64,000 nt of DNA, taken from assembly GCA_910574205.1 (NCBI GenBank), contig CAJSYJ010000003.1:1-64000 (forward strand). Reading direction: 5' to 3'. Source of the DNA: Bacteroidales bacterium. Its GTDB lineage: Bacteria > Bacteroidota > Bacteroidia > Bacteroidales > Rikenellaceae. Position 1 is the stretch's first letter; each line of letters opens with the position of its first letter. The notes under the pieces are model-generated. The model ran no database searches and had not been told where the DNA came from. It was given only the letters and a program-made list of their open reading frames with translations. The position numbers and the translations under genes are program-made. Of the stretch, positions 5,596-58,189 are shown in pieces.

Positions 5596-5623
5596 GAGCA
5601 ATAAACTAAACAACGTTTTCATC

Positions 5624-5694
5624 AAGCCGAGGGCTGAGCCGCTTATGCGGACTATGCCGAGGCGCAGAAAAGGTCTAAAAAATTCAACGATACA
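5624..5694 (+). repeat. AAGCCGA/CTATG element abutting the ddl-like start
   Basis: AAGCCGA (5624-5630), a small hairpin with CCGC/GCGG arms (5639-5650), CTATGCCGAGGCGCAGAAAAGG (5652-5673, key bases CTATG, CCGA, GCAGAAA) and then TTCAACGATA leading into the ATG at 5695. The same layout ends at the mfd start (46368-46437) and forms the core of the 57.7-kb tandem array. Confidence 0.7.
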
Positions 5695-6885
5695 ATGAAG
5701 ATCAACGTCGGAGTAATATTCGGTGGCCGTTCGGTCGAGAACGAAATCTCAGTCATAACGGCCGTACAGACGATGTCGGCTATGGATGCCGACAAGTACA
5801 ATATCATACCTATATATATATCCAAGCAGGGACACTGGTACACGGGCGACAAACTGCGTTCGACGGACAACTACCGCGACATGAAGCGCCTGCTGAGCGA
5901 GGTCGAGGAGGTATACCTGCGCCCGATATACGGAGACAACCGTCTCTACCGCGTCCGAAAGCCGCTGCTGGGAAGCGACGTCGCCGCGACGATAGATGTC
6001 ATCCTGCCCGCACTGCACGGCACGAGCGGCGAGGACGGCGCATTTCAGGGCACGATCGAATTTACGGGCATACCATACGCCTGCCCCAATCCGCTGGCCT
6101 CGGCCAACGGCATGGACAAGATCACGATGAAGATGATACTCAAAGAGTGCGGCATACCGGTGGTCGACTACTGCTGGTTCTCGGACAAGGAGTGGCTCTC
6201 GGAGCGCGACGCGACCGTGCAACGCATCGAGGCCAAGCTGCACTACCCCATGATCGTCAAGCCGGCCAACCTCGGATCGAGCGTCGGCATCAAGGCCGTG
6301 CACGACCGCTCGGAGCTCATCGAGGCGGTCGATAACGCCGTCACATACTCCAAGCGAATCATCGTCGAGACCCTTATCGAGCAGCTCAAAGAGATTAACT
6401 GCTCGGTGCTGGGCGACTACTACGACTGCCGCGCGTCGGTATGCGAAGCGCCAGTGCGCAGCGGCGAAATACTCAGCTACGAGGACAAGTATCTCGGCGG
6501 CGGCAAGAACAAGCAGTCGCAGGGCATGCGCTCGACCGTAAGAGAGATACCCGCCTCGCTGCCGCAGCAGACGACCGACTTCATCCGCCGCACAGCGTGC
6601 GATACGTTCAAGGCCCTCGCCTGCGACGGCGTATCGCGCATCGACTTCATGATCGACCAAGCCGACGGCAGCATATATGTCAACGAGATCAACACCATAC
6701 CCGGCTCGCTGTCGTTCTATCTGTGGGAGGCTACGGGCGTGCCGTTCGGCGAGCTGGTCGACACGTTGATCGACATAGCGTTCCGCCGCAAGCGCGACTC
6801 CGACTTCAAGATAACGAGCTACTCCGAAAACATATTCGCCTATCAGAACGTCCACGGCGCAAAGACCGGCGGCGCCAAGCGATAG
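5695..6885 (+). CDS. D-alanine--D-alanine ligase-like ATP-grasp enzyme
   Basis: A 396-residue ATP-grasp ligase of the Ddl family: VIFGGRSVENEIS at the N terminus, HGTSGEDGAFQG, PANLGSSVGIKAV for nucleotide binding, and EINTIPGSLSFYLWE near 335-350 in place of the usual NTLPG-phi-T segment of biosynthetic Ddl. The family joins two D-amino or hydroxy acids with ATP. The altered active-site tail and its place behind a membrane Mur ligase leave the second substrate open (D-Ala, D-Ser or another). At about 396 residues it is longer than typical DdlB (about 306). A 99-base gap before it is occupied by a repeat element that ends at the start codon. Confidence is high for family, moderate for exact product. 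Confidence 0.85.
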   Translation: MKINVGVIFGGRSVENEISVITAVQTMSAMDADKYNIIPIYISKQGHWYTGDKLRSTDNYRDMKRLLSEVEEVYLRPIYGDNRLYRVRKPLLGSDVAATIDVILPALHGTSGEDGAFQGTIEFTGIPYACPNPLASANGMDKITMKMILKECGIPVVDYCWFSDKEWLSERDATVQRIEAKLHYPMIVKPANLGSSVGIKAVHDRSELIEAVDNAVTYSKRIIVETLIEQLKEINCSVLGDYYDCRASVCEAPVRSGEILSYEDKYLGGGKNKQSQGMRSTVREIPASLPQQTTDFIRRTACDTFKALACDGVSRIDFMIDQADGSIYVNEINTIPGSLSFYLWEATGVPFGELVDTLIDIAFRRKRDSDFKITSYSENIFAYQNVHGAKTGGAKR

Positions 6886-22333: not shown

Positions 22334-22618
22334 GCGCAAAGCGGGGATCGTGCGGCAGGTGTCGGCTATCGCCTTATAATGTTCGGCGTCAGAGTCGTGC
22401 AGATGCCGTCGATCGCTGCGGAGCGTCGGACGGGCTGTACCGGCGTACTGCCCGTTCGGCGCAAAGCGGGGATCGTGCGGCAGGTGTCGGCTGTCGCCTT
22501 ATAATGTTCGGCGTCAGAGTCGTGCAGATGCCGTCGATCGATGCGGAGCGTCGGACGGGCTGTACCGGCGTACTGCCCGTTCGGCGCAAAGCGGGGATCG
22601 TGCGGCAGGTGTGCGGCT
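22334..22618. repeat. 125-bp tandem repeat, 2.3 copies
   Basis: Units start at 22334, 22459 and 22584 (the last truncated at about 35 bases), each opening GCGCAAAGCGGGGATCGTGC. The first two differ at only a few positions. The period is not a multiple of three, so it is not a coding repeat. It fills most of the 350-base gap between cysS and prfB, where no promoter or terminator is clear. Confidence 0.9.
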
Positions 22619-22632
22619 ATCACGCCGAACGG

Positions 22633-35167: not shown

Positions 35168-36499
35168 ATGAAATCAGCTATATTCATGAGACCTATTAAA
35201 TTACTATCTTTACTCGCGGCATGCACGATGCTTGCCGCATGCAACGACGAGGAGGAGTTTACCTGCCGTCTGCAATCATTCGAGATCAGTGCCGTAACGA
35301 CGACTACGGCGACGCTTACGGCCGTTATCGACGCAAGCGATATGGAGGCCGTCGACCAAATGGGCTTCTGCGTACGCAGAACATCCGACGTCGATTTCGA
35401 ATGGATAGCGATACCCAAGTCGCGCACTATAATCTGCCGTCTCGACGATCTGGCAGAGGGGGCCACTTACGAATGCCGCGCCTTCGTGCGTGCCGTAGGC
35501 GAATCGTGGACATTCCCCGTCGAGCGCTTTACGACACAAAAGGGAGGGGGAAGCGATCCCGATCCCGATCCTAATCCGGATCCCGACCCCGATCCTACCC
35601 CAGACCCGGATCCCGATCCAAACCCTGATCCCGACCCCGATCCTACGCCCGACCCCGACGGACCGGTATATCGCACCGGCTGGTTCGAGCTGCCGGTCGA
35701 GAACGATGCCGACGGCAACGGCCGCGACGACAAGAACCCGACCTACTACTATGCGCATCATTTGTGCGCAGGCAACGAGTCGAATGCACAGGACAACGGC
35801 TCGGCACGCAATTTCAGCGTATGTTACAGCAGCGAGCACCACTGTCCGGTATGGGTCGCAGCACCGCGTCACAAATGCTATTCGGGCTCGGCAAACCGCA
35901 CCAACGCATACGGCCAAGACCCGCAGATACCGTCCAACATACAGTATTACAGCAAGTCTACGGGCGGAGGATGCAACAAGGGACACATGGTGGGTTCGGC
36001 CGAACGCACTTCGTCGTCGGCGACCAACCGTCAGGTGTTCTACTACACGAACATAGCACCGCAGAACATGTCGACGTTCAATACGGGCGGCGGCGCATGG
36101 AACAACCTCGAAGATCATATCGACGGACTGGTCTGCGCCGATACGCTCTACGAGGTGGTCGGCTGCTACTTCGACAGCTACACCGACGCCTACGGCTCGA
36201 CATCGTCGCCGCGCCGCATAGAGTTCGGCGGCCGCAGCGACGTGAGCAAGCCCACGATGTTCTACTATGCGCTGCTGCGCACCAAGCGCGGCAACACCAA
36301 AAAGTCGGTCAGCGAATGTTCGGCCGACGAGTTGCAGTGCGTGGCATTCGTCATCAGCCACACCATGGAGAAGGGACACAAGCCGCAGGCCAAGGATATG
36401 ATCTCGGTCGAGGCATTGGAGAGACTTACGGGTTTTACCTACTTCCCCAACGTGCCCAACGCCCCGAAGAAGACTTTCACACCGTCGGATTGGCTGTAA
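35168..36499 (+). CDS. Secreted DNA/RNA non-specific endonuclease with FN3-like domain
   Basis: A 443-residue lipoprotein (signal ending MLAAC). Residues about 30-125 form a fibronectin-III-like domain; 130-164 are an Asp-Pro repeat linker; about 170-443 are a NUC1-type beta-beta-alpha-metal nuclease. The usual DRGH is NKGH here (CNKGHMVGSAER), keeping the general-base histidine, and the metal-binding region reads YTNIAPQNM and WNNLED. It should degrade nucleic acids outside the cytoplasm, perhaps for nucleotide scavenging, in line with the upstream cytidine deaminase. The start directly abuts the dtd stop (TAAATG); ATG at 35186 is an alternative. Confidence 0.88.
   Translation: MKSAIFMRPIKLLSLLAACTMLAACNDEEEFTCRLQSFEISAVTTTTATLTAVIDASDMEAVDQMGFCVRRTSDVDFEWIAIPKSRTIICRLDDLAEGATYECRAFVRAVGESWTFPVERFTTQKGGGSDPDPDPNPDPDPDPTPDPDPDPNPDPDPDPTPDPDGPVYRTGWFELPVENDADGNGRDDKNPTYYYAHHLCAGNESNAQDNGSARNFSVCYSSEHHCPVWVAAPRHKCYSGSANRTNAYGQDPQIPSNIQYYSKSTGGGCNKGHMVGSAERTSSSATNRQVFYYTNIAPQNMSTFNTGGGAWNNLEDHIDGLVCADTLYEVVGCYFDSYTDAYGSTSSPRRIEFGGRSDVSKPTMFYYALLRTKRGNTKKSVSECSADELQCVAFVISHTMEKGHKPQAKDMISVEALERLTGFTYFPNVPNAPKKTFTPSDWL
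35555..35659 (+). repeat. Asp-Pro coding microrepeat
   Basis: About 35 codons alternating GAT/GAC with CCC/CCG (plus Asn and Thr variants) encode a rigid, negatively charged linker between the FN3-like and nuclease domains. The near-repeat DNA is prone to length change. Confidence 0.9.
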
Positions 36500-46251: not shown

Positions 46252-46288
46252 GCCTTGCGCCGGGGATAAGCCGCAGGCGAGATCGGCC

Positions 46289-46330
46289 TCCGACAAGTCC
46301 CGGCAGAGAGGATTCTGCCCGCCTTGTCGG
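46289..46330 (+). promoter_or_regulatory. Two-tier hairpin between rng and mfd
   Basis: CCGACAAG (46290-46297) pairs with CTTGTCGG (46323-46330), enclosing GGCAGA/TCTGCC (46302-46307 with 46314-46319). No T tract follows, so it may be an mRNA processing or stability structure rather than a terminator. Confidence 0.5.
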
Positions 46331-46437
46331 GGCGCAGAAAAGGTATCCGGCAGGGAACGGCTTCATGAAGCCGAGCGTAGGGCCGAGCTTGCTCGGACTA
46401 TGCCGTGCCGTAGAAAAAGTCGAAAAATTTCAACGAT
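46331..46437 (+). repeat. AAGCCGA/CTATG element abutting the mfd start
   Basis: AAGCCGAG (46368-46375), a CCGAG/CTCGG hairpin (46383-46396), ACTATGCCG (46397-46405), GTAGAAAAAGTCG and TTCAACGAT reach the ATG at 46438. It matches the element before the ddl-like gene along its length. A partial extra copy (GGCGCAGAAAAGGT) lies at 46331-46344. Confidence 0.7.
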
Positions 46438-49400
46438 ATGCTGCAACTTGTCGAGGGGTCTGCAAACCTCTCGTCGACAGTCGAATCACTCAACCGAAAA
46501 GGCGCTACCGTCCATCTCAAACAGATGGTCGGCGGGGCCTTTTCGCTATATGCCGCAGCGGCGGCAGTGCGCGCGGGCGGCATCCACATCTTCGTAGCCG
46601 ACGACCGCGATGCGGCCGCCTATCTGGCCAACGACTTCTACCAGCTGCTCGACGAGAGTGACGTATATTTCTTCCCGTCGGCCTACAAGCGTTCGATAGC
46701 CTACTCGCAGCAGGATGCGCAGGGCGTGGTGCAGCGCACGGCGGCGCTGACGGCCATAAGGGGCGCAGCAAGGCCCTACATAGCCATCTGCACCTACCCC
46801 GAAGCTCTGGCCGAGACGGTCGCCGACCGACAGCGGCTCGCACGGCGCACGCTTACCCTCAGCGTAGGCGACAGCATGGCGCAGACGCGAATCGTCGAGA
46901 GGCTCGAAGAGATGTCGTTCGAGAAGGTCGAGTTCGTCTACCAGCCCGGACAGTACTCCGTGCGCGGCGGCATAGTCGACATATTCTCATACGCCGAGTC
47001 GAAGCCCTACCGCATAGACCTGTTCGGCGACGAGATCGACTCTATCCGACGCTTCGACATATCGAGCCAGCTGTCGTCAGAGCGTCCCGACACGGTGGAG
47101 ATCATACCCAACATGGACGATGCAGACGAGGAGCGCATCTCGCTGGCGGCATTCGTCTCGGAGGGTACGGTATGGTTTACCGATGCCGATCATGCGCTGG
47201 GCAAGGTCAACGAAATACGCAAGAAGCTGCTCTCGCAGCTCGACGAACCGTCGACCATAGACCGCCACCTCAGCTCGCGCAATGCGCTTCTGAGGGACAT
47301 GGAGGGGATGTGCATAGTCTCGCTGAAAGACAATCTCAAAGAGCGCCGCGCCGACACGACAATCGAATTTCGCCAGTCGCCGCAGCCGGCATTCAACAAG
47401 AACTTCGAGATGCTGGCCGACGACATAATCGCCTCGTCGCAGCGCGGTTATACGACGTGGATACTGTCGCAGAACAAGATACAGATCGAACGACTGACCA
47501 ACATTTTCCACCAGATAGGACGTCGCAACGTCGCGTTCCGCACGCTGCCCGCCGTCCTGCACGAGGGCTTCGTCGACAACGATCTGAAAATATGCGTATA
47601 CACCGATCATCAGATCTTCGACCGCTACCAGCGCTACCGCATCCGCGGCGAGATCAAGCGCGACGAGCAGATGACCGTGGCCGAGCTCAACGCCTTGAAG
47701 GTCGGCGACTATGTAGTACACATAGATCACGGCGTCGGACGCTTCGGCGGCCTTGTCAAGCTCAACGACAACGGACGTATCAAGGAGGCCATAAAGCTGA
47801 TCTACAAGGATAACGACATACTCTTCGTCAACGTGCACGCCCTGCACCGCATATCGCGCTACAAGAGCGGCGAGGGCGAACCGCCCAAGATTTACAAGCT
47901 CGGCGGCGGCGCATGGCAGAAGTTGAAGACGGCGACCAAGAAGGCCGTAAAGGACATCTCGCGCGAGCTTATAGCGCTATATGCCAAGCGCAAGGCATCG
48001 AAGGGCTTCGCCTTCTCGGCCGACGGCTACCTGCAACAGGAGTTGGAGGCGTCGTTCGTATGGGAGGATACACCCGACCAGCAGAGCGCCTCGCAGGCCG
48101 TAAAGCGCGACATGGAGTCGGAGCAGCCTATGGATCGTCTCGTATGCGGCGACGTGGGCTTCGGCAAGACCGAAGTTGCCATACGCGCCGCGTTCAAGGC
48201 GGCTGTCGACGGCAAACAGACGGCGGTGCTCGTGCCCACGACCATACTCGCGCTGCAACACTACCGCTCCTTCTCGGAGCGCCTGCGCGACCTGCCCGTC
48301 AAGGTCGAGTATCTCAACCGCACCAAGTCGGCCAAGCAGACGCGGCAGATACTCGAAGATCTCGCCGCGGGCAAGATAGATATTATAATAGGTACGCACA
48401 AGATACTCGGCAAGCAGGTCAAATTCCACGATCTGGGGCTGCTGATTATCGACGAGGAGCAGAAATTCGGCGTCGCGGCCAAGGAGAAGCTGACGCAGAT
48501 GTCGGTGTCGATCGACACGCTGACGCTGACCGCCACGCCCATACCGCGCACGTTGCAGTTCTCGCTCATGGGTTCGCGCGACCTGTCGATCATCTCCACG
48601 CCGCCGCCCAACCGCCAGCCGATAGTAACCGAGTCGCACGTCTTTTCCGAGGAGGTCGTACGCGACGCTATCGAGGAGGAGCTGTCGCGCGGCGGACAGG
48701 TATACTTCGTGCACAACCGCGTCGACGACCTGATGTCGGTCGAGGGGATGCTGCAACGGCTCTGCCCCAAGGCGCGTATCGGCGTGGGACACGGACGGAT
48801 GCCGGCCGAGCAGCTCGAACGCCTCGTCATGGACTTCATCTACGGCGAGTACGACGTGCTGCTGACCACGACGATCGTCGAGAACGGAATCGACGTACCG
48901 AACGCCAATACGATCATCATCGACAACGCGCAGAATTTCGGTCTGAGCGACCTGCACCAGCTCCGCGGCCGTGTCGGACGCTCCGACCGCAAGGCGTACT
49001 GCTATCTCATCACCCCGCCCAACGAGCTGTTAGGCGGAGACTCGCGCCGCCGTCTGAGGGCCATAGAGGAGTTCTCCGATCTGGGCTCGGGCTTCAACAT
49101 AGCCATGCAGGACCTCGACATACGCGGTGCGGGCAATCTGCTGGGTGCCGAGCAGAGCGGCTTCATAGCCGACATAGGCGTCGAGACATACCAGAAGATC
49201 ATGCAGCAGGCGATATCGGAGCTGCGCTCCGAGGGGCTCGACGTATCGGGTCTGACGCAGGCCGAGAACGATGCCATGCAGAGCATCGGCTTCATCGACG
49301 ACGCCACGATCGATATCGACGTCGAGGCCTCGCTGCCCGACAGCTACGTCCATTCGCAGTCCGAGAAACTGCGCCTGTACCGCGAGCTGGACTCGCTGCA

Positions 49401-49740
49401 ATCGGAGGAGCAGCTGACCTCGTTCGCCGCGCGTCTCGAAGACCGCTTCGGTGCGCTGCCCGAGGCCACGGTCGAGCTGATGAACGTGGTGCGTCTGCGC
49501 CGCGAGGCGGTGCGTCTGGGCATGGAGCGCGTCAAGGTCAAGAACGGGCTGATGATAGTGTGGTTCGTCGGCGACGACTCGTCGCCCTATTACAAGAGCG
49601 ACACCTTCATGGGGCTTCTGCGCAAGGTCACGGCCGACGCCGAACGATTCGTGCTCAAACAACACAATAACCGGCTTGCGATGACCGTTAGGAAGGTACG
49701 CAACATAGCGCAGGGGGTCGAAGTGCTGAGGGCGCTTTGA
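46438..49740 (+). CDS. mfd: Transcription-repair coupling factor Mfd
   Basis: A 1100-residue Mfd. N-terminal UvrB-like domains (about 1-350), the RNA-polymerase-interacting domain (VGDYVVHIDHGVGRFGGL, about 420-480), the translocase with Walker A GDVGFGKTEVAIRAA and DEEQ (IIDEEQKFGV), the TRG-like motif region DLHQLRGRVGRSDRKAY, and the C-terminal inhibitory domain. It removes stalled RNA polymerase and recruits UvrA to lesions. The start codon directly follows the repeat element; coaX follows after 21 bases. Confidence 0.97.
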   Translation: MLQLVEGSANLSSTVESLNRKGATVHLKQMVGGAFSLYAAAAAVRAGGIHIFVADDRDAAAYLANDFYQLLDESDVYFFPSAYKRSIAYSQQDAQGVVQRTAALTAIRGAARPYIAICTYPEALAETVADRQRLARRTLTLSVGDSMAQTRIVERLEEMSFEKVEFVYQPGQYSVRGGIVDIFSYAESKPYRIDLFGDEIDSIRRFDISSQLSSERPDTVEIIPNMDDADEERISLAAFVSEGTVWFTDADHALGKVNEIRKKLLSQLDEPSTIDRHLSSRNALLRDMEGMCIVSLKDNLKERRADTTIEFRQSPQPAFNKNFEMLADDIIASSQRGYTTWILSQNKIQIERLTNIFHQIGRRNVAFRTLPAVLHEGFVDNDLKICVYTDHQIFDRYQRYRIRGEIKRDEQMTVAELNALKVGDYVVHIDHGVGRFGGLVKLNDNGRIKEAIKLIYKDNDILFVNVHALHRISRYKSGEGEPPKIYKLGGGAWQKLKTATKKAVKDISRELIALYAKRKASKGFAFSADGYLQQELEASFVWEDTPDQQSASQAVKRDMESEQPMDRLVCGDVGFGKTEVAIRAAFKAAVDGKQTAVLVPTTILALQHYRSFSERLRDLPVKVEYLNRTKSAKQTRQILEDLAAGKIDIIIGTHKILGKQVKFHDLGLLIIDEEQKFGVAAKEKLTQMSVSIDTLTLTATPIPRTLQFSLMGSRDLSIISTPPPNRQPIVTESHVFSEEVVRDAIEEELSRGGQVYFVHNRVDDLMSVEGMLQRLCPKARIGVGHGRMPAEQLERLVMDFIYGEYDVLLTTTIVENGIDVPNANTIIIDNAQNFGLSDLHQLRGRVGRSDRKAYCYLITPPNELLGGDSRRRLRAIEEFSDLGSGFNIAMQDLDIRGAGNLLGAEQSGFIADIGVETYQKIMQQAISELRSEGLDVSGLTQAENDAMQSIGFIDDATIDIDVEASLPDSYVHSQSEKLRLYRELDSLQSEEQLTSFAARLEDRFGALPEATVELMNVVRLRREAVRLGMERVKVKNGLMIVWFVGDDSSPYYKSDTFMGLLRKVTADAERFVLKQHNNRLAMTVRKVRNIAQGVEVLRAL

Positions 49741-57677: not shown

Positions 57678-57706
57678 TATCAACCAGGCGCAAAGCCTCA
57701 ATCATT

Positions 57707-57880
57707 CAGGCTATGACGAAGTGCAGAAACGGCATCCGGATGCGGAACATTTTCCTTAAACCGAACGCAAGCCGACCTGTTCAGGCTATGACGAGATGCA
57801 GAAACGGCACCTGGATGCGGAACATTTTCCTTAAACCGAACGCAAGCCGACCTGTTCAGGCTATGACGAGTGGCAGAAAG
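57707..57880 (+). repeat. 75-bp tandem repeat, about 2.3 copies
   Basis: Units begin near 57707, 57782 and 57857. Each opens CAGGCTATGACGA, continues NGCAGAAACGGCA and includes GCGGAACATTTTCCTTAA and CGCAAGCCGACCTGTT. The third copy diverges after about 25 bases. The period is three-divisible and a frame does run through, but without promoter, start context or stop conservation. The CTATGACGA-GCAGAAA core and the AAGCCGA just before it match the elements in front of the ddl-like gene and mfd. Confidence 0.85.
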
Positions 57881-58189
57881 GGTGCGCGGCGGCGAAAGTT
57901 CACGTTATGCCGAAAGCAGAACCGAAATCGTTCGAGATATACAGAAGTATAGATCAACAGATATTCGACGGCTTTTGCCGAACGCAAGTGTGTTTAGCGA
58001 AGCAGATGATATTTACAACAATTTATCGCGCTGCCCTATCGCGGCCCGGCCTCGCACTACCCCATCTTTCGTCATGACCGTATTACGCGAGATACGCACG
58101 GCCGCGGCATTCGCCCCACGAAAAGGTCGGTTCGCGCCCGCATTATGTCGTTCTGCGGCATCTGCCGTCCCGAATCATCTAAATGGCTC
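57881..58189. other. Intergenic gap, no gene seen
   Basis: About 310 bases after the tandem repeat. Short frames only, no promoter match until 58190, no RNA-like structure that I can recognise. Composition is patchy (AT-rich near 57990-58040), suggesting decayed sequence. Confidence 0.5.

Follow-up and report, generated by a model that had tools for sequence, protein, structure and literature searches.

An Alistipes genome carries, between its genes, many copies of a short non-coding DNA element of about 75 bp that is most probably mobile and resembles the REP and ERIC repeats, with an enzyme acting in trans that would move its folded single strand. Specifically, a covariance model (R1, from alignment A1) built on 13 copies recovered about 50 copies at E ≤ 0.01 and 77 matches at E ≤ 1 in this 2.33-Mb genome, far more than chance would give, and the copy number ranges from 0 to 63 across 71 genomes of the genus; a covariance search of this kind had been proposed for this and related genomes. 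The window (the whole stretch of 64,000 nucleotides analysed here) contains three groups of copies. Two of them, before the ddl-like gene and before mfd, had been described as related repeats and were both found as described, and the third, a tandem array, comes in addition. The features of the window are as follows.

5612 to 5690, plus strand: copy before ddl (model R1, 82.8 bits, E 1.6e-16; empty site in the relative G097)
5626 to 5664, plus strand: ddl copy, inner stretch of its large hairpin (GCC...CCGC-TTAT-GCGG...GGC; one bulged A; folding energy -26.1 kcal/mol, z -2.8)
5695 to 6885, plus strand: ddl, D-alanine--D-alanine ligase, adjoining the copy and outside the element (NCBIfam NF002528, above cut-off)
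46283 to 46358, plus strand: divergent unit 76 nt upstream of the mfd copy (GCAGAAAA at 46334, GTAGAAAA at 46410; fold)
46356 to 46436, plus strand: copy before mfd (model R1, 83.4 bits, E 1.2e-16; absent before mfd in 29 relatives)
46438 to 49740, plus strand: mfd, transcription-repair coupling factor, adjoining the copy and outside the element (NCBIfam TIGR00580, above cut-off)
About 57705 to 57970, plus strand: tandem array of divergent copies with a period of 75 (repeat finder, Tandem Repeats Finder, and model matches at 57746, 57821 and 57895)

The window has two occurrences of the 3' block of the element (GCAGAAAA..TTCAACGATA), where shuffled sequences give an expectation of 0.00, and five of a second block (CTATGCCG..AGAAAA), against 0.22. 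The limits first given to the two copies, 5624-5694 and 46368-46437, begin about 12 nt too far downstream, as judged from the conserved AACGTTTTC. The inserted stretch at ddl extends from about 5615 to 5688, preceded by an AAC at 5612-5614 and closed by the terminal AAC at 5686-5688; at mfd it extends from about 46359 to 46434, with the corresponding AAC trinucleotides at 46356-46358 and 46432-46434 and the ATG of mfd at 46438. The partial extra copy noted at 46331 is real and corresponds to the 3' half of the divergent unit, lying exactly 76 nt (GCAGAAAA at 46334 to GTAGAAAA at 46410) from its counterpart; the 5' half of this unit, behind the ribonuclease G gene, now folds into a strong hairpin (46290-46330). 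Two details of the original description needed correction. TTCAACGATA does not lead straight into the ATG at ddl, where the sequence is TTCAACGATACAATG, and at mfd the ATG comes after TTCAACGAT. The bases beyond the terminal AAC(G) belong to the native leader and not to the repeat.

Head-to-tail tandem copies with a spacing of 75-76 nt occur elsewhere in the genome, for instance as three units at C4:103287-103519. Other tandem repeats of the window are a 125-bp repeat at 22334-22621 (2.3 copies, 97% matches), whose period is not divisible by three, and GATCCC-type repeats at 35554-35659 (period 6/18/24/48), which probably code for an Asp-Pro-rich stretch. Two copies of the element, at C4:217409 (L094) and C2:209209 (L087), are near-identical including 15 flanking bases, which suggests that a larger segment was duplicated or that the element is composite there; the divergence of most copies in this genome is too high to prove current activity. 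Copies tend to lie toward contig ends, likely reflecting assembly breaks. A 16S rRNA gene on the minus strand (1-595) marks the end of contig C3, which thus breaks at an rRNA operon.

Evidence for insertion comes from relatives in which the same sites are empty. The element is absent upstream of ddl in all 23 other species of the genus that were examined, and upstream of mfd in 29 of 29. G097, the nearest relative, has a ddl leader in which AATAAACCAAATTACG is joined directly to ATAACAGCAATG, against AATAAACTAAACAACG...TTCAACG joined to ATACAATG in the Alistipes genome, and the site corresponding to C3:110082 reads ATATAAAC joined to TAAAAACT, against the filled ACATAAAC...TTAAAC joined to TAAAAATT. 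Further sites empty in G097 are those at C2:218410, C4:23252 (before fabF), C1:21217 (before udk), the array at 103 kb of C4 and groES, the names fabF and udk being based on the start of the encoded protein only; several empty sites are clear on one side only because their flanks have diverged. In the G097 comparison, the native sequence picks up directly past the terminal AAC of the element, which identifies the latter as an insertion and bears out what had been offered as the alternative reading, a dispersed selfish repeat. The point of entry lies right after a native ..AAC, often A-rich. One copy (C1:951614) is common to G097 and the Alistipes genome, and its stems differ in sequence and are paired in both; this one could have a local function.

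The element folds, in single copies as in the consensus, into one long imperfect hairpin followed by a short 3' hairpin and the terminal AAC. The outer helix of the long hairpin (ACGTTTTC/GAAAAGGT) is followed by a GCC/GGC helix, inside which lie a tandem GA internal loop (GA/GA) and a C/G-rich helix (GCAGAGCCGAA/TTCGG(A)CTATGC) that contains a bulged base and is capped by a YTTR loop. The small 3' hairpin in Alistipes is built from GTCGAA/TTCAAC or GTGCGC/GCGAAC. As had been noticed, the hairpin arms at ddl and mfd differ (CCGC/GCGG against CCGAG/CTCGG) and pair in both folds, and this proved to be a general property. Among 41 copies from the genome itself, aligned with only five of 24 pairs supplied in fitting, 77.8% of the cells in the structure are paired, the covariation score is 0.155 against at most 0.086 when the structure is slid, and the search for compensatory changes that had been suggested yielded 44 double-change cells against 22.1 +/- 3.8 in shuffled data. 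In 65 distinct sequences from the wider search with the core of the element described below, the outer arms, which lie beyond the search pattern, form more stable pairings with the partner from the same copy than with arms taken from others (-10.9 against -8.6 kcal/mol; 0 of 20,000 permutations). A small hairpin that has a GNA loop and then AA is found in 20 of the 65, against 0.2 in shuffles, with stems as varied as GGC/GCC, GAC/GTC, AGC/GCT and CAAAC/GTTTG. The minimum free energy fold is as predicted for two of three representatives and differs for the third. The stems of the element thus change by compensation, and covariation, own-partner pairing and the excess of the small hairpin together uphold the structural constraint first proposed for the hairpin. 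An intrinsic terminator was considered and rejected: in the sense orientation the hairpin precedes A-runs, not T-runs.

The kind of mismatch tolerated in the stems is informative as to when the structure is needed. If an RNA fold were upheld after insertion, G.U should outnumber A.C among mismatches; the counts are 52 for G.T and 57 for A.C, and hence give no sign of upkeep of the stems at the RNA level. This equality favours a structure required before or during movement, with symmetric decay afterwards.

The position of copies relative to genes, for which a check against start codons had been suggested, is far from random. In a set of 52 loci comprising 59 copies, some of them weak, the 3' end lies in sense orientation within 60 nt before a start codon at 20 loci, and the 5' end faces the start codon at only two; distances are approximate, gene starts having been taken from a codon-usage caller. 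Random intergenic points reach such positions in 7.8% of cases (P about 8e-10 for proximity, and about 6e-5 for the orientation bias of 20 against 2). The Bacteroidota are a phylum generally devoid of Shine-Dalgarno leaders, and the last 30 nt before the ATG contain, in sense, 29.6 AAC against 10.3 GTT per kb and 17.1 AAAC against 3.2 GTTT per kb, AAAC standing at 4.9 per kb elsewhere. When the random points are weighted by AAAC, the expected share rises to about 20%, with residual P values of about 0.001 (proximity) and 0.02 (orientation), so that targeting of AAC-rich leaders explains much of the excess beside start codons, although perhaps not all of it; some may come from copies being tolerated in leaders or from a mild benefit.

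Several copies (groES, C3:110082 and the array at 103 kb of C4) lie between promoter-like sequence and the ATG. At groES, TTGGCATATCTATTGC, which is kept in both the Alistipes genome and G097 (L080, about 2600-2640; L176), looks like a putative sigma-54 promoter of the -24/-12 type, and lies upstream of the insertion. Single copies may have a role of their own, and those at groES and in the C4 array would be transcribed. Together with the excess in sense orientation before start codons and the conserved structure, such arrangements would fit a cis-acting RNA leader that controls or stabilizes the mRNA that follows, with copies kept for a function at the RNA level. We consider this improbable, given the variety of unrelated neighbouring genes, the many copies distant from genes or in convergent regions, and the even mismatches described above. 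A regulatory leader specific to ddl or mfd was rejected because the orthologues examined have no element in their leaders, and the role in the mRNA structure or translation of individual genes that had been thought plausible is not supported by these observations. Under the mobile element model, the commonest target would be the AAC-rich sense strand of gene leaders, which would leave sense copies beside start codons; copies in 5' untranslated regions or between the genes of an operon would be transcribed passively and might change the folding, stability or translation of the mRNA. A conserved gene-specific role of the element is not indicated.

We infer that a structure-recognizing enzyme acting in trans moves the element, which would be recognized and transferred as a folded single strand in the manner of REP or IS200-type elements. 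The Y1 transposase (Y1_Tnp, PF01797; IS200/REP-type) has no representative in the Alistipes genome and is absent from 70 of 71 genomes of the genus, with the control found in 5 genomes; the sole Y1 gene of the genus (G062) sits beside a TnpB-like gene with no copies of the element nearby. Elsewhere in the order, 29 of 42 genomes contain Y1 genes, and in these other Bacteroidales none of 30 Y1 loci has the element within 1.5 kb. One genome (G186) has a copy near two Y1 genes, which may be due to chance, and Y1 genes are completely absent from copy-rich genomes such as G128 and G207. Y2 transposases (IS91) were detected in 0 of 71 genomes of the genus, where the control was silent as well. ORF clustering at 80 loci revealed no recurrent partner gene beside the copies, only one shared conjugative element containing a copy.

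These observations bear on whether the element is a true REP, mobilized by a REP-associated tyrosine transposase of the Bacteroidota that has been lost in Alistipes. One such candidate is subclass 2.6 of TnpA-Y1, which occurs mostly in Bacteroidetes and has at its flanks atypical structures that recur at other places in the genome (PMC6006769). Like REPs and REPINs (RAYT, TnpA-REP), the element is a small intergenic bulged palindrome in many copies, and its folded single strand is probably what is moved in trans. Even with the G186 copy counted in its favour, this explanation appears unlikely: the foot of the hairpin has no GT[AG]G, the consensus on its 5' side being GTTAA followed by GCC, none of the 30 Y1 loci from other Bacteroidales carries a copy, and copy-rich genomes can lack Y1 genes altogether. 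The element further differs from REPs in its two hairpins and its tandem units of 72-80 nt. A REP/RAYT system of the Alistipes genome itself was rejected for lack of a Y1 gene. As the foot tetranucleotide, the cognate transposase and the flanking arrangement all failed to match, the element is REP-like in its working and not a member of the family.

Two other mobile types could account for the AAC found at both junctions. A MITE, left by an internal deletion within an insertion sequence of the DDE type, would be short, non-coding and dispersed as the element is, with AAC as a 3-bp target duplication; the trinucleotide may equally reflect target choice. Such an origin appears very unlikely: the ends show nothing more than GTT..AAC in the way of terminal inverted repeats, the bulged palindrome lies internally, tandem units are joined without extra duplication and stems vary among copies with pairing kept. 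An attC-like site, recombined by an integron-type tyrosine recombinase with a crossover at AAC/GTT, would likewise combine a conserved structure with variable sequence and an extrahelical base, and would explain why both junctions have AAC, read as GTT on the opposite strand. It is the least likely of the readings weighed here: no integron integrase was found in 71 genomes (no control genome matched either), no cassettes lie between units, and the end of the element in other genera is AA plus any base.

Among known repeats, ERIC sequences or intergenic repeat units of enterobacteria are imperfect palindromes in transcribed intergenic regions, non-autonomous and, to our knowledge, with no known mobilizer; they work alike and are set apart by description, through another length and host group. 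IS200/IS605-type ends have subterminal hairpins, a target motif on the left, a similar motif at the right end and no clear target duplication, and also work alike, whereas the element carries no tnpA or tnpB. Within the Bacteroidales, PINSR of Prevotella intermedia and Prevotella nigrescens, detected by PCR in one Prevotella clade only, is likewise an intergenic non-coding repeat of high copy number without terminal inverted repeats, and is set apart by description at 188 bp against about 75 bp (PMC4755523). BrickBuilt/MITEPgRS of Porphyromonas gingivalis is similar in placing tandem units in intergenic DNA, but its units are of 23 or 41 nt inside inverted repeats matching known insertion sequences, and their consensus, AGAYCATARTATCCTCTCRTRTG, is unlike the element (PMC4596501). 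Rfam families did not match, whether judged by the gathering score or by a threshold of E ≤ 1, and for the ddl stretch none did at E ≤ 10; the open-access literature, searched by description and by sequence, gave no account of the element, although large catalogues of unnamed candidate structured RNAs could contain it (PMC8040213). The earlier impression that no named element has this pattern agrees with both.

The element extends well beyond Alistipes. A full-structure model (R2), used on 198 genomes of the order at a threshold of E ≤ 0.001, gave matches in 23 of them and in 19 of 147 genera sampled. In a collection covering 84,980 species of bacteria and archaea, a 28-nt core (AGAGCCRAAYTTRTTYGRRCTATGCCGA) matches at least 118 stretches; the 80 matches listed are all from Bacteroidota, mostly Bacteroidales, with Alistipes, Bacteroides, Phocaeicola, Prevotella, Dysgonomonas, Paludibacter and Proteiniphilum among the genera and single records from Prolixibacteraceae and Vicingaceae. 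The terminus in other genera is AA plus any base, as opposed to AAC in Alistipes, and a stricter Alistipes-type pattern had no match in the genome contig collection. One copy lies within a conjugative-transfer-like region common to five Bacteroidales genomes (L211, L218, L220, L237 and L240), indicating that copies can travel on conjugative elements. Carriage by phages or plasmids was rejected as the main vehicle, being rare (two viral contigs, one plasmid and one phage). Another repeat, CATGCTGAGCGAAGTCGGACC, adjoins the element in several genomes, always at the same register (L219, L226, L233, L239, L273 and L279), and the two repeat families possibly form a composite. Our broadest interpretation, which we put forward tentatively, is that of a Bacteroidota-wide class of mobile DNA defined by its two-hairpin fold and not by its ends or a transposase, moved by a kind of enzyme new to small repeats and seeding structured 5' untranslated regions in AAC-rich leaders.

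The element thus represents a mobile repeat defined by structure and conserved across a dominant gut phylum, outside Rfam and the literature searched. As at least three copy-rich genomes lack a Y1 transposase, the search for the enzyme of the element is a well-posed problem. Copies can mislead searches for promoters or riboswitches, and those directly before start codons represent natural experiments in leader structure.
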